Below, piece after piece: positions 30,029 through 35,445 of a stretch of DNA of 64,000 bases. A program made the translations under genes and the position numbers. Numbering within the stretch: position 1 is the stretch's first letter; every line of letters begins with the position of its first letter. Source of the stretch: Pedobacter punctiformis (GTDB lineage: Bacteria; Bacteroidota; Bacteroidia; Sphingobacteriales; Sphingobacteriaceae); NCBI RefSeq assembly GCF_027213715.1, contig NZ_JAPWGM010000001.1, positions 310,001-374,000 on the forward strand. The letters are read 5' to 3'. The notes beneath the pieces are model-generated. The model made no database searches. It had not been told where the DNA came from and was given only the letters and a program-made list of their open reading frames with translations.

Positions 30029-30616
30029 TTAATCATCCAGCCCCTTGCCAGTTAGAATTTTTGACAGGTATTTTTCAACCCTCGACTCACGGGTTTTAGA
30101 TTGTTTGGGTTGAGAAAAATGTAGCATGTAAGCCCTTTGTCGTCCCGGTGTTAATGCCTCAAAAGCTGTTTTTAAGGCCGGAATTTCATCCAGTTTCTTT
30201 TGAAATTCTTCAGCCATTGTAAATTCTGCAGTCTTTTTAAATTCTATTTTCAAGCCAGCTTTTTCTACTTCAAGCGCCTCAAAAATATAGGCTTTCAGGA
30301 TAGATTCCTGCTCAATTATTTCCTGGATATTGGTAAACCGGATTTGGCGTGCGGCTTGTACATTCTCTGTTTGCTGAATCAGAATGTTATGAGCATCGTT
30401 TAACAAAGCACCTTTAAAAAACAAAAACGCACAGTATTCTTTAAATACATGTATTAATACGATGTTATTTTTTTGAAACACATAACAGGGAACACCCCAT
30501 TTCAATTCTTCTGTTAGCCCACAACCAAGTGCAATCGTTCTTAATTTCCTGATTTCTTTCTGCCATTTTTTGGCTTTTTCAAAATAAAAATCAACTTTAG
30601 GGTTCATACCATTCAT
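30029..30616 (-). CDS. YdeI-family protein (DUF1801 plus OmdA-like)
   Basis: The 195-residue protein has an N-terminal DUF1801 fold (about 10-115, EELKWGVPCYVFQKNNIVLI) and a C-terminal YdeI/OmpD-associated segment (about 135-190, LTPGRQRAYMLHFSQPKQSK, then TRESRVEKYLSKI). The role is poorly known. The start is one base after the DoxX stop; the internal ATG three codons later is also possible. Confidence 0.88.
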   Translation of the reverse strand: MNGMNPKVDFYFEKAKKWQKEIRKLRTIALGCGLTEELKWGVPCYVFQKNNIVLIHVFKEYCAFLFFKGALLNDAHNILIQQTENVQAARQIRFTNIQEIIEQESILKAYIFEALEVEKAGLKIEFKKTAEFTMAEEFQKKLDEIPALKTAFEALTPGRQRAYMLHFSQPKQSKTRESRVEKYLSKILTGKGLDD

Positions 30617-30617
30617 T

Positions 30618-31001
30618 TTATTGGTTAACCGGAATAATTCTTCTATTTGCCGGCCTGAAATACCATGAAACCACAGTCAGGATTAGCAATAATAATGAAG
30701 GTGCCATATCTTTTATGGAATTACCCGATGCAATATGCGAAATTGTAGCTCCCGACATGGCAAAGAAAAAACCTGCATAAGCCCATTCCTTCAACAAGGT
30801 AAATTTAGGAATAAGCACCGCCACAACGCCCAAAAATTTCCAGATGCCTATTATCGTTAAGAAATATATCGGATAACCTAATTGCGTAATGTTATCTACT
30901 TCTTTTTTTACTTTTAATAACTGGACTATTCCGGTTGATGCCATCCCTAATGCGAGCCAGATGGTCGAAATCCAATAGATAATTTTATTTGTCTTTGTCA
31001 T
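30618..31001 (-). CDS. DoxX-like membrane protein
   Basis: The 127-residue protein has four predicted membrane helices, with the DoxX-like pattern YFLTIIGIWKFLGVVAVLIP. Family members are linked to redox or stress functions, without a firm reaction. It sits six bases after the first SRPBCC gene and one base before YdeI, so it is part of one transcript. Confidence 0.88.
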   Translation of the reverse strand: MTKTNKIIYWISTIWLALGMASTGIVQLLKVKKEVDNITQLGYPIYFLTIIGIWKFLGVVAVLIPKFTLLKEWAYAGFFFAMSGATISHIASGNSIKDMAPSLLLLILTVVSWYFRPANRRIIPVNQ

Positions 31002-31007
31002 AACATA

Positions 31008-31475
31008 TTATTTTAATTGATTTACCACATCCTGGAGGCGATTATGCGCCATGTTTAAACCCTGCGCAAAAGGCAAAGCGAGCATTTGATCCCGGAGTGC
31101 AAGCGATTTATATATAATGTGTATATTGAGTTTACAGGTATTTTCGGTAAGTTTTTCAAACTCCAGGAACTCGAGCTGGGTAGCAAAAGGTGTATTCTCC
31201 ATCTCAAAAGTCCGGGTGATTTTTTGATTCGGAACAAATTCATGAATTACTCCATTGGCCTTAAATACGACGTTTCCCTGAGCATTACTGGTTTCAAATT
31301 GATAACTACCATACTTTTTACTTTCCAATTTCAACACTTTTGTCCCCATCCACTGCTCTACTATATCAGCTTCTGCATAGGCTTTAAAAAGTAATTCTAC
31401 CGGCAGGTCAAATTCCCTGGTAATCATCAGTTCCTGTTTATCCTTTTCGGCATTGATCTTTGTTTTCAATTCCAT
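31008..31475 (-). CDS. SRPBCC (AHSA1-like) protein linked to ArsR
   Basis: The 155-residue helix-grip protein opens with TREFDLPVELLFKAYAEADI and contains VEQWMGTKVLKLESKKYGSY. ArsR-SRPBCC pairs are frequent in Bacteroidota, and the SRPBCC protein may bind the same hydrophobic compound; this is an inference. It lies six bases after arsR. Confidence 0.92.
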   Translation of the reverse strand: MELKTKINAEKDKQELMITREFDLPVELLFKAYAEADIVEQWMGTKVLKLESKKYGSYQFETSNAQGNVVFKANGVIHEFVPNQKITRTFEMENTPFATQLEFLEFEKLTENTCKLNIHIIYKSLALRDQMLALPFAQGLNMAHNRLQDVVNQLK

Positions 31476-31481
31476 ATCAAT

Positions 31482-31796
31482 TTATTTATAGTTTTTCATA
31501 ATGGCTTCCAGTTTATTAAATCTGTCGTCCCACATTTTGCGAAACGGTTCAATAAAATCGGCTACTTCTTTCATGTTTTTAGCATTAATGGTATAGTAAA
31601 TCTCTCTGCCGTTTTGTTTTTGCTCCAGCAAAGCACACTCCGTAAGTATTTGCAAATGTTTTGAAACGGTTGGCCTTGCAGTATCAAAGTTTGTGGCTAT
31701 TGCCCCTGCCGTCATCGCCTGCGAAGCAAGTAATAAAAGTATAGCCCTTCTTGTGGGGTCGGCTATGGCCTGAAATACATCTCGTCTTAAATTCAT
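31482..31796 (-). CDS. ArsR-family winged-helix repressor
   Basis: The 104-residue protein has a winged helix: [20 protein letters not shown], then the recognition helix in [20 protein letters not shown]. There is no metal-binding CxC motif, so it probably does not sense metals. Two similar inverted repeats surround its own promoter, so it very likely represses itself and the downstream series. Confidence 0.94.
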
Positions 31797-31798
31797 TA

Positions 31799-31816
31799 TG
31801 TAGCTATTTGACTACA
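31799..31816. promoter_or_regulatory. ArsR operator A (TGTAG-N8-CTACA)
   Basis: This inverted repeat with five-base arms covers the expected start of transcription and ends three bases before the arsR ATG. It matches operator B in sequence (GTAGCTATTTGACTAC versus GTAGCCATTTAACTAC), 26 bases away. Confidence 0.75.
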
Positions 31817-31846
31817 AATATAAACGTAGCCATTTAACTACGCAAA
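31815..31846 (-). promoter_or_regulatory. arsR promoter
   Basis: On the minus strand, TTTG (31846-31843), 20 bases, then TATATTTG (31822-31815) match the Bacteroidota -33/-7 consensus exactly. Operator B fills the spacer. Confidence 0.78.
31825..31842. promoter_or_regulatory. ArsR operator B (CGTAG-N8-CTACG)
   Basis: This inverted repeat fits exactly between the -33 and -7 boxes of the arsR promoter. Binding there would block RNA polymerase, consistent with autorepression. Confidence 0.75.
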
Positions 31847-31902
31847 TTTTAATGAAAATTTTTTCTAATAAACTCCATTTATTTAAAATTTCACCAAAAC
31901 AT

Positions 31903-31932
31903 TTTGATTGTACGAATACATTCGTACATTTG
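31903..31932 (+). promoter_or_regulatory. Promoter of the serine hydrolase gene
   Basis: TTTG at 31903-31906, 18 bases, and TACATTTG at 31925-31932 match the Bacteroidota promoter consensus. The start of transcription is expected near 31939, about 54 bases before the ATG. Confidence 0.75.
31910..31927. promoter_or_regulatory. Operator 1, GTACGAAT-AC-ATTCGTAC
   Basis: This inverted repeat with eight-base arms and a two-base centre lies between the -33 and -7 boxes and shares three bases with the -7 box. The TACGAA-N4-TTCGTA core recurs 24 bases downstream. It does not resemble the ArsR sites. Confidence 0.75.
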
Positions 31933-31934
31933 AT

Positions 31935-31950
31935 TACGAACAAATTCGTA
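31935..31950. promoter_or_regulatory. Operator 2, TACGAA-N4-TTCGTA
   Basis: This is a second copy of the core with perfect six-base arms, over the expected transcription start. The pair suggests repression by a protein that is not encoded beside it. Confidence 0.72.
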
Positions 31951-31992: not shown

Positions 31993-33405
31993 ATGAAAAG
32001 CCTCAAATTCACATTTTTACTACTAATCGCAGTTAACTTCTGCAATGCACAAACGAAAAATAAAGAAAAACAGTTAGACAGTATTTTCACTATTTTATAC
32101 AAACAAAATCAATTTAACGGAACAGTATTAATTGCCGATAAGGGCAAGGTTGTTTTCAAAAAAGGTTATGGTTATCGTGATGAAAACTCAAAAGCGCTAA
32201 ATTCTTCTACAACTATTTTTGAACTGGGTTCCTGCTCTAAACAATTTACGGCAATGGGAATCCTTCTATTGGCAAAACAGGGGAAACTAAGCTATAATGA
32301 TCAATTATCGAAATACATCCCTGAACTATCTTTCTGGAATGACGTTACCATTTACAATCTTCTCAGACATACCAGTGGTGTTCCTGAATATTTAGATGCC
32401 ATGAGAAAAGAATGGGACAGTACAAAGATTGCAACTAATAAAGATTTAATAAATTTTTATGCTAAAAGAAAAGATACGTTAAACTTTAAGCCAAACACAA
32501 ATCATAGATATTGCAATACCAATTATGCCTTACTGGCCTCCATAATTGAGCGGGTTTCGGGCGAAGATTATGCAACTTTTCTGAAGGAAAATATTTTCGT
32601 TCCACTTGGAATGAAAAATACATTTGTTTACAACAGAAGGCAATCTCCAAGGAAAATAACAAACTACGCAATTGGATACGTTTGGGCTAGGGATAGTTTC
32701 AAAAAAGTAACCTCTGAAAATCCTGGGTATGATGAAAAAATGGTTTATTATTTGGATGGAATTGTAGGCAGTGCAAAGGTAAATTCTACAGCAGAAGATT
32801 TACTTAAATGGATAAACGCTTTAAAAAGCAATAGCTTCATTTCTGCTGAAGACTTTAATCAAATGACAGAAATTACTAAAACCACAAAAGGCAAAAACAT
32901 TCCTTATGGTTTCGGACTAGATGTTTCAAAAGGCGAAAATAAATTTTCTTTTGGGCATACAGGATCCTGGGACGGTTACGCCTCATTTATATATCATAAT
33001 ATGCCTAAAGACAGAACCATTATTATTTTACAAAACTTTAAAATGGGCACTTATTCATTTAATAATATCAGTCAGATTTTAGACAATAAACCTGTAGTAA
33101 CTGAATATAGAAGTAAGATAAATATTCCGCAATCGGAAATGGAGAAATACGCAGGAACTTATTTAGACGAAAAGGATAAAGAGGAAGCGCATATTCTGAC
33201 CTATAAAAATGGACACTTGTTTTATAACACACCAAAAGTAAAATGGGACATGAGATTTTTTCCGGTTTCGGCGAATGAATTTAGCAGAATAAGTCAGGGA
33301 GGCGTTGATGGTATTTTAAAATTCACAAAACTAGAAAACGGAGACACCAAACTGGAGATGCTTCAATATGGCAATGTTATTGGCACAGGTATAAAAAGCA
33401 AATAA
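31993..33405 (+). CDS. Secreted serine hydrolase, class C beta-lactamase/PBP4-like fold
   Basis: The 470-residue protein has a signal peptide (to about residue 19), then a beta-lactamase-like domain with S80-x-x-K83 (GSCSKQF), Y173-x-N175 (RYCNTNY) and an HTG motif (FGHTGSWDGY). A C-terminal lipocalin-like extension follows (about 370-470). Such proteins include peptidases and esterases; true beta-lactamase activity is not established. Its promoter carries twin palindromes, so expression is probably inducible. The divergent neighbour is arsR. Confidence 0.92.
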   Translation: MKSLKFTFLLLIAVNFCNAQTKNKEKQLDSIFTILYKQNQFNGTVLIADKGKVVFKKGYGYRDENSKALNSSTTIFELGSCSKQFTAMGILLLAKQGKLSYNDQLSKYIPELSFWNDVTIYNLLRHTSGVPEYLDAMRKEWDSTKIATNKDLINFYAKRKDTLNFKPNTNHRYCNTNYALLASIIERVSGEDYATFLKENIFVPLGMKNTFVYNRRQSPRKITNYAIGYVWARDSFKKVTSENPGYDEKMVYYLDGIVGSAKVNSTAEDLLKWINALKSNSFISAEDFNQMTEITKTTKGKNIPYGFGLDVSKGENKFSFGHTGSWDGYASFIYHNMPKDRTIIILQNFKMGTYSFNNISQILDNKPVVTEYRSKINIPQSEMEKYAGTYLDEKDKEEAHILTYKNGHLFYNTPKVKWDMRFFPVSANEFSRISQGGVDGILKFTKLENGDTKLEMLQYGNVIGTGIKSK

Positions 33406-34013: not shown

Positions 34014-34466
34014 ATGAACTTACAGATTAAAGAGATTAAGAGCTATAATCATGAAATAAGAAATACAGTTGAGCATTTCTTAAAATCATTACAAGGTTGC
34101 GAAAGCAGTATATCCGAGTACCAGTTAAAAGAAATAATATCGTCTGAAAACAGTTATCTTTTTTTCGCTTCTAGTGTCCACGATGTATGTATTGGTATGT
34201 TGACGATAGGAATTTATCAGTCGCCAACTGGCAAGAAAGCTTGGATTGAAGATGTTGCTGTTGATGACCTTTTTAGAGGACAAGGTATTGGCGAGAATCT
34301 AATAACATTTGCTATCCAATTCGCCAAACAGCATAATGTGGATGTTTTAAATCTAACATCATCGCCTGCTAGAGTTGCGGCTAATAATTTATACAAAAAA
34401 ACCGGCTTTCAACCAAAGGAGACCAATGTTTACAGAATGGCTTTAGGTACAAATTCTTATGCTTAA
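34014..34466 (+). CDS. GNAT-family N-acetyltransferase
   Basis: The 150-residue GNAT protein has IEDVAVDDLFRGQGIGENLI at about 81-100 (acetyl-CoA loop RGQGIG) and a C-terminal NNLYKKTGFQ motif. The substrate is unknown. Its last eight bases overlap the start of the broken amidohydrolase, so both were once translated together. Confidence 0.9.
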   Translation: MNLQIKEIKSYNHEIRNTVEHFLKSLQGCESSISEYQLKEIISSENSYLFFASSVHDVCIGMLTIGIYQSPTGKKAWIEDVAVDDLFRGQGIGENLITFAIQFAKQHNVDVLNLTSSPARVAANNLYKKTGFQPKETNVYRMALGTNSYA

Positions 34467-35445
34467 ACTTGAAACTTTCCCAAAAATAGATGCGCATTTT
34501 CACTCGACTTTTTATGATCCTATATATGAGAAAATAGCGAAAGACTATCATGTAAAATACATTAATATCAATACAAATGCGAGCGTGTTTCCTCCCATGG
34601 AAATTCAGGAAAGTGTGGCTTTAGCATATATTAAAAAAGCTCCTGAGCATTTCGCCTATATTGCCAGTTTTGAGATGAAAGGTTGGGAGAACCCGAATTG
34701 GTATAGCTATGTATTCGAACATCTAAAAAATTCGATTAATCAGGGGGCAGTTGGTATTAAAATCTGGAAAAATATTGGAATGGAGATATTGAAACCTGAT
34801 GATCAATCATTTCTGATGATTAATGACCCATTTTTTGATCCTCTCTTCATCTATTTGAGCGAAAATAACATTCCAGTGCTCACACATTTGGGTGAACCGA
34901 AAAATTGCTGATTACCTGTGGAAGAAATGACCTCGGAGCGTAATAAAGCTTATTACATTAAAAATCCTGAATTTCATGCGTATTTACATCCTGAAATCCC
35001 TACATACAAACACCAGATAGAGGCAAGAGATTATTTAATATCTAAATACCCCAAACTCAAGCTAATAGGCGCTCATCTGGGAAGCTTAGAATGGAGTTAC
35101 AAAGAGCTTGCAAACCGTTTTGATCAATATTCTAACTTCTACGTTGATTTATCTTCCCGTTTAGGGCATTTACAGATGCAGTCCGTTAACGATTATGAGG
35201 GTGTACGGAATTTTTTCATTAAATATGCTGATCGCATCATGTATGGAACAGATGCTTATAACAATCCCGAAAAACTTATAACTTCTTTAGTTAATGACTG
35301 GAAGTATTTCACTACAAATAAACAATGTGATTCTATAGAGGTACAAGGTGTTTTTAGAGGGATTGAACTACCTGAGGAGGTACTCTACAAGCTTTATTAT
35401 GCCAATGCGCAAAAAATATATCCAGGTCTTAAGACAGAATTCTAA
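34459..35445 (+). pseudogene. Amidohydrolase (TIM-barrel metal-dependent hydrolase) interrupted by an in-frame TGA
   Basis: The reading frame is open before and after a single TGA at 34909-34911 and resumes in the same frame. The text around it is GEPKNC-stop-LPVEEMT; family members as I remember them have Trp here, so TGG to TGA is the simplest cause. Metal-site motifs are split: HFH (KIDAHFHS) and LTHLGEP lie before the stop, GAHLGSLEW and YGTDAY after it, so neither half should be active alone. A GTG at 34918 could restart translation of the second half. It may be a real nonsense mutation, a base-call error, or read-through. Confidence 0.88.

Follow-up and report, generated by a model that had tools for sequence, protein, structure and literature searches.

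Which repressors read the short gap between two back-to-back genes of the soil bacterium Pedobacter punctiformis, arsR on the minus strand and a serine hydrolase gene on the plus strand, and do the two halves of this gap form a single regulatory unit? The gap lies within a 64,000-nucleotide stretch of DNA, hereafter the window, for which a preliminary description had portrayed a mirrored control region: two divergent promoters, each with an operator pair of its own type, and hence two repressors, of which only ArsR would be encoded locally. We propose, with a probability of about 0.87, that the region comprises two independent conventional switches, ArsR acting on its own operon and a BlaI/MecI-family protein encoded on another contig (C12 BlaI, after its contig) acting in trans on the hydrolase gene. 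The features on which this reading draws, numbered by position in the window, are:

30029..31475, minus strand: AHSA1/SRPBCC, DoxX-like and DUF1801/OmdA genes downstream of arsR (profile matches)
31482..31796, minus strand: gene for an ArsR-family repressor of 104 aa (PF12840 and PF01022 over cut-off; PDB relatives mostly ArsR-family)
31800..31815, minus strand: putative ArsR operator over the arsR start, GTAGTCAAATAGCTAC (GTAG-N8-CTAC here in 30 of 30 loci, own included)
31815..31822, minus strand: -7 box of the arsR promoter, TATATTTG (by sequence; consensus TAnnTTTG)
31826..31841, minus strand: putative ArsR operator in the promoter spacer, GTAGTTAAATGGCTAC (GTAG-N8-CTAC here in 29 of 30 loci, own included)
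31843..31846, minus strand: predicted upstream TTTG box of the arsR promoter (by sequence and position)
31902..31906, plus strand: predicted upstream TTTTG box of the hydrolase promoter (same box before many blaI operators)
31911..31926, plus strand: putative BlaI-type operator 1, TACGAATACATTCGTA (exact site, located in the spacer and extending into the -7 box)
31925..31932, plus strand: -7 box of the hydrolase promoter, TACATTTG (by sequence; consensus TAnnTTTG)
31935..31950, plus strand: putative BlaI-type operator 2, TACGAACAAATTCGTA (exact site, over the predicted transcription start)
31993..33405, plus strand: serine hydrolase of the beta-lactamase family PF00144, 470 aa, probable target of the BlaI-type repressor

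By sequence, the gap holds two promoters of the Bacteroidota type, both with a -7 box that conforms to TAnnTTTG, the sigma-A consensus placed at -12 to -5 in the excerpted text of PMC9723704. Each operator pair flanks its own -7 box, and because each pair brackets this box, one copy falls in the spacer and the other over the predicted start. Scanning for E. coli-type sigma-70 promoters was tried and set aside, as it returned three sites against a shuffle mean of 3.0; the Bacteroidota boxes fit instead. On the hydrolase promoter, the TACGAA-N4-TTCGTA sites described for spacer and start are indeed there, both copies exact and 24 bp apart. On the arsR promoter, the pair and its positions stand (two GTAG-N8-CTAC sites, 26 bp apart), but the longer form TGTAG-N8-CTACA is exact only in the start copy (31799-31816), the spacer copy reading CGTAG-N8-CTACG. 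The distance of 57 bases given for the two promoters is near what we measure, 55 bases between their upstream TTTG boxes and 69 between the site pairs.

The arsR locus looks like an ordinary, conserved, autoregulated operon, as judged from sequence. Its product has the winged-helix domain of the ArsR/SmtB family, and the putative operator pair on its promoter recurs at the same places in 29 of 30 loci (those of the best ArsR matches, the window's own among them), the exception, L089, keeping the start-site copy. ArsR matches at E <=1e-25 occur in 82 of 119 genomes of the genus, paralogues included. The genes at 30029..31475 probably form an operon with arsR, as their spacing suggests. The locus is thus like the ArsR/SmtB autorepressors in pairing a winged-helix repressor with two operators on its own promoter, but unlike them in that the protein has a single cysteine in its 104 residues and no metal-binding CxC, and in the SRPBCC, DoxX-like and DUF1801 genes that follow. 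The metal-binding CxC motif of ArsR/SmtB proteins is not present in all members. With one cysteine, the family name implies no arsenic sensing, nor do the genes after arsR point to it; a literature search for ArsR with SRPBCC operons found nothing on point. Among the fetched flanks of the ArsR loci, a PF00144-like gene was found beside the window's own and in none of the other 29. The region is mirrored in the sense that both pairs are present, but it is not a conserved unit, only the ArsR half being widespread in the genus, and we regard its halves as most likely two independent switches lying side by side.

A genome search for TACGAA-N4-TTCGTA beside regulator genes, the check suggested in the preliminary description, turned up the same pair before a BlaI/MecI-family gene. 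The exact motif has four copies in the 4.1-Mb genome, which form two pairs of equal 24-bp spacing, the second of them on contig C12 in the promoter of a PF03965 gene and with the same orientation of the -7 box. The product of this gene (C12:352792-353127) scores 96.6 bits for PF03965 against a cut-off of 22.6 and matches MecI in the PDB at 4.6e-9. All six PF03965 (BlaI/MecI) genes of the genome lie on contigs other than that of the window, which agrees with ArsR being the only one of the two regulators encoded locally; the notion that two site types mean two repressors is likewise supported by the sequence evidence, with a BlaI/MecI-family candidate for the second. Loose counts lend nothing to this picture, since in the window neither the TACGAA site (<=2 mismatches, 3 versus 2.6 expected) nor the ArsR site (<=3 mismatches, 3 versus 2.05) is enriched, and in the own genome the 14 TACGAA sites with <=1 mismatch are fewer than the 41 of the reversed pattern; the case rests on exactness, pairing and conservation. 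Of the ten one-mismatch sites of the own genome, considered as further targets, eight were discounted, as they lie inside reading frames (one a frame of 95 aa); the other two are in the C9 blaI promoter (L017) and at L013, a possible further target, where a gene with the start MNKKSILIAAGLG follows at a distance of about 50 bp.

Conservation ties the site closely to blaI. With <=3 mismatches allowed, 98 of the 119 genus genomes contain the paired pattern and none contains its reversed control; at all 30 genus loci fetched, an orthologue 70-93% identical to C12 BlaI lies downstream, its ATG 6-14 bases after the operator pair. C12 BlaI orthologues (E <=1e-44) are present in 112 of the 119 genomes, each of these 112 having one exact site or more, while among the seven genomes without one (G005, G015, G028, G045, G056, G066, G108) the exact site is present once in G056 and absent from the other six (Fisher p 2e-9 for co-occurrence, a value that ignores the shared ancestry of the genomes). 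Across a sample of the whole family, 130 of 301 genomes, and 14 of 25 genera, have the exact pair, counted irrespective of the downstream gene. Among 80 named loci listed, drawn from at least 119 stretches, many of the same species, and including Pedobacter, Sphingobacterium, Olivibacter, Chitinophagaceae and Hymenobacter, 78 precede BlaI (76 by BLAST; two, L275 and L315, by reading frames); the other two precede a PF00144 gene (P. caeni) and an outer-membrane beta-barrel gene (Hymenobacter mucosus). At the latter (L268), the full operator pair and the -7 box stand upstream of the beta-barrel gene rather than of blaI.

The second repressor at the hydrolase is most likely C12 BlaI acting in trans, as the shared operator pair suggests. 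What the sequences show is the sites with their layout and conservation, their co-occurrence with blaI, and an operator of another kind at the nearest paralogue; we infer from these the binding, the repression, the signal, the cleavage of BlaI by its M56 partner and the way in which the hydrolase was recruited, in outline as follows. ArsR would repress its own operon from the two sites on its own promoter. The BlaI/MecI-family repressor from the blaI-M56 peptidase operon on the other contig would bind both TACGAA-N4-TTCGTA sites as two dimers, one on the spacer and -7 box and the other on the transcription start, and would shut off the serine hydrolase just as it does its own operon; that the two dimers would block the polymerase is suggested by the placement of the sites and by the known biology of repression by BlaI, MecI and CopY, as described in excerpts of PMC3305447 and PMC7253601. 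A signal at the membrane M56 protease would inactivate BlaI, such that the hydrolase, whose signal-peptide-like start suggests export, and the blaI operon would be induced together. The gene adjoining C12 blaI matches Peptidase_M56 at 2.3e-34 and has the HExxH motif in the form HELSH, and this partner makes release of repression through BlaI proteolysis plausible. The hydrolase would have been recruited recently, through a promoter similar to the one of blaI.

In outline, the putative BlaI-M56 module resembles BlaI/BlaR1; we do not claim induction by beta-lactams. As in the BlaI/BlaR1 and MecI/MecR1 systems of Staphylococcus and Bacillus, a PF03965 repressor related to MecI, with its predicted operators on its own promoter, has an M56 gene beside it, there is more than one operator (for those systems, according to excerpted accounts), and a PF00144 enzyme is among the probable targets. 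There are also differences. The operator core TACANNTGTA of BlaI/MecI is not seen here, both hydrolase sites reading TACGAANNNNTTCGTA, which sets TACGAA-N4-TTCGTA against the TACA/TGTA core of the excerpted descriptions; the predicted target lies on C1 and blaI on C12, whereas theirs is a divergon in which the target diverges from blaI-blaR1; and a search of the M56 protein detected no penicillin-binding sensor domain, M56 and M48 being its only matches at E <=0.001. Moreover, the Asn101-Phe102 bond at which S. aureus BlaI is cut (excerpt of PMC9834060) aligns to Gln-Ala in C12 BlaI, so that this cleavage site is not conserved. The CopY/CopR copper repressors are also BlaI/MecI relatives, with two operator palindromes in E. 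hirae according to the excerpted text, but the operator given there is RNYKACANNTGTMRNY, and C12 BlaI has no cysteine and therefore no CxC motif.

How the hydrolase came by its operators can be approached through its homologues. Neither the ten closer ones (57-63% identical, among 145 genus genomes) nor 18 more distant ones have a site with <=2 mismatches in the 500 bases upstream, hence the hydrolase is not conserved as a target; conservation of the sites in related strains, on which the preliminary description had staked its proposal, holds for the ArsR pair and in part fails for the hydrolase pair. The only other hydrolase homologue seen with the pair, which is exact there, is that of P. 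caeni (G058, 51% identical). In P. caeni the stretch from operators to hydrolase aligns with the start of the organism's own blaI, at a local score of 49 against a maximum of 42 in 2000 shuffles, and, with a stop inside, reads as a decayed BlaI N-terminus, to judge from this alignment. The P. punctiformis hydrolase promoter aligns with its own blaI promoter at a local score of 98, a value obtained without shuffle control, the alignment being gappy outside operators and boxes and displaying no coding remnant of blaI. These sequences are most simply explained if the hydrolase gene came under the same control when it gained a copy of the blaI promoter, in one event or two.

Outside C12-type blaI promoters, the exact site occurs at 41 places, 40 in the 119 genus genomes (the window's own included) and one in G125; for G006, G038, G065 and G103, with two exact sites each, the places were counted as blaI by assumption. 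So many places would be expected by chance, the reversed control occurring about once per genome over 119 genomes. Their position differs modestly from control, with 38 of 41 within promoter reach of a gene versus 15 of 23 places of the control palindrome (p 0.012; the 23 were found in 13 of 29 genomes). Ten of the 41 precede PF00144 serine hydrolases (9 of 40 without the window's own), which belong to six lineages with mutual identity <=35%; a binomial calculation on this share assumed a PF00144 rate of 1% and ignored shared ancestry. A profile of these PF00144 proteins matched none of 71 ORFs in control-site loci and none of 111 in blaI loci, one of 161 in arsR loci and one of 51 in the window (both the window's hydrolase), and two of 79 in a set of flanks from the own genome and from P. 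caeni (the hydrolase of P. caeni and another close to it). Of the other downstream proteins scanned, 13 are of the outer-membrane kind and bear CarboxypepD_reg, plug or beta-barrel domains (in several cases with scores under the Pfam cut-off), followed by pairs of DUF6624 proteins, PF00756 esterases, thioredoxin-like proteins and proteins without a match, and by single cases of an M16 peptidase, an aspartyl protease, a LytTR protein and a DUF4932 protein; L149 (no Pfam match) was grouped by look only, as were L153, L157, L163, L214 and L252, which were left out of the scan. In L154, L157, L163, L195 and L209 the first 46-108 bases of similar outer-membrane protein frames contain the site, which may be a coding coincidence; in L214 and L252 it lies deeper inside reading frames, and in L198 between that locus's hydrolase and a divergent gene, at comparable distances of 144 and 159 bases. 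In the own genome, the convincing predicted targets are the blaI-M56 operon and the window's serine hydrolase, and relatives also seem to use this BlaI-type repressor on beta-lactamase-like enzymes.

Two recurrent families were also observed. A second PF00144 family (65-88% identical; L152, L197, L199, L198) has a TACGAA-type site close upstream in four genomes, reading TACGAAATATTTCGTA in three of the four. In eight genomes (L148-L150, L155, L156, L205, L207, L251), the site stands 55-137 bases before a member of a recurrent outer-membrane-type family whose signal peptide is followed by FAQKG or YAQKG.

Against control by two repressors, it might be argued that ArsR binds both site types and governs the whole region, given that both pairs have an equal layout and lie about 70 bp apart. 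This is most improbable: the palindromes differ, GTAG-N8-CTAC pairs precede arsR in 29 of 30 loci with a hydrolase beside the window's own only, and TACGAA pairs precede blaI in 30 of 30 loci fetched. A comparably slim chance attaches to the palindromes being RNA hairpins or intrinsic terminators rather than operators. One palindrome per pair was scored as terminator-like (31909-31928 on the plus strand, 31843-31824 on the minus strand), and three such sites were found versus 0.4 in shuffles, but the palindromes sit at the -7 box and predicted start and not after a gene, and at blaI and hydrolase alike the central four bases vary while the arms and the 24-25-bp spacing stay fixed; position and conservation led us to reject the terminator reading.

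It is also unlikely that the hydrolase answers to a different BlaI paralogue, that of the C9 type, which is the closest one (assigned by similarity, without a tree, in 20 genomes, loci L374-L393). The C9-type blaI genes have TACGA-N6-TCGTA (<=1 mismatch) in 20 of 20, as one copy in 19 and two in L378; this operator class, TACGA-N6-TC(G/C)TA, sits just before the CCTT of the promoter, and the own C9 blaI operator is TACGATAGTTTTCGTA. Its TACGA...TC(G/C)TA arms are shared with the hydrolase sites, and the exact site precedes a C9-type blaI (L211) in G056, a genome without the C12 type, so that the paralogue may also recognise the TACGAA-N4-TTCGTA type. However, of the 20 C9-type promoters 19 have a single site and none has the exact TACGAA-N4-TTCGTA across the 180 bases scanned, whereas the exact pair, the 24-bp spacing and the embedded -7 box of the hydrolase promoter are those of the C12 class. 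Similarly doubtful is the idea that the sites before the hydrolase have no function and are left over from a copied blaI promoter, to which the decayed blaI start between operators and hydrolase gene in P. caeni and the closer homologues without the sites would lend some colour; yet both sites and the -7 box of the P. punctiformis hydrolase are intact, and six PF00144 lineages with the site fit selection for control, not decay. Control by C12 BlaI in trans thus remains the reading that we prefer.

If correct, this reading assigns a likely regulator to an operator pair that had none and provides a short operator code for a BlaI family; among open-licence papers, we found no description of this operator or of Bacteroidota targets of this BlaI family. 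It also suggests that beta-lactamase-fold enzymes are under BlaI-type control in a further group, one in which the M56 partner shows no penicillin sensor, in which case the BlaI-M56 signalling module would be separate from antibiotic sensing, and it illustrates one way in which genes may enter a regulon. Going further, and at somewhat less than even odds, Sphingobacteriales and neighbouring Bacteroidota might share a BlaI-M56 regulon that has its own operator, senses the state of the envelope rather than beta-lactams, and has repeatedly recruited beta-lactamase-family hydrolases and outer-membrane proteins of the CarboxypepD_reg/TonB type, sometimes through the promoter of a decaying blaI copy, to which the P. 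caeni leader points.

Some minor observations concern the surroundings of these genes. Three other BlaI paralogues of the genome (L001, L002 and L003, on contigs C14, C10 and C11) have A/T-rich upstream repeats, ACTA/TAGT-like in two of them, and given these differing repeats each paralogue may have its own code. In many draft genomes the contig ends some 4-6 kb away from the blaI operator, and this closeness suggests a conserved repeat near blaI, perhaps an rRNA operon. Within the window itself, an amidohydrolase-like frame at 34459-35445, with PF04909 in its second part, contains one in-frame stop and is either a pseudogene or a sequencing error.
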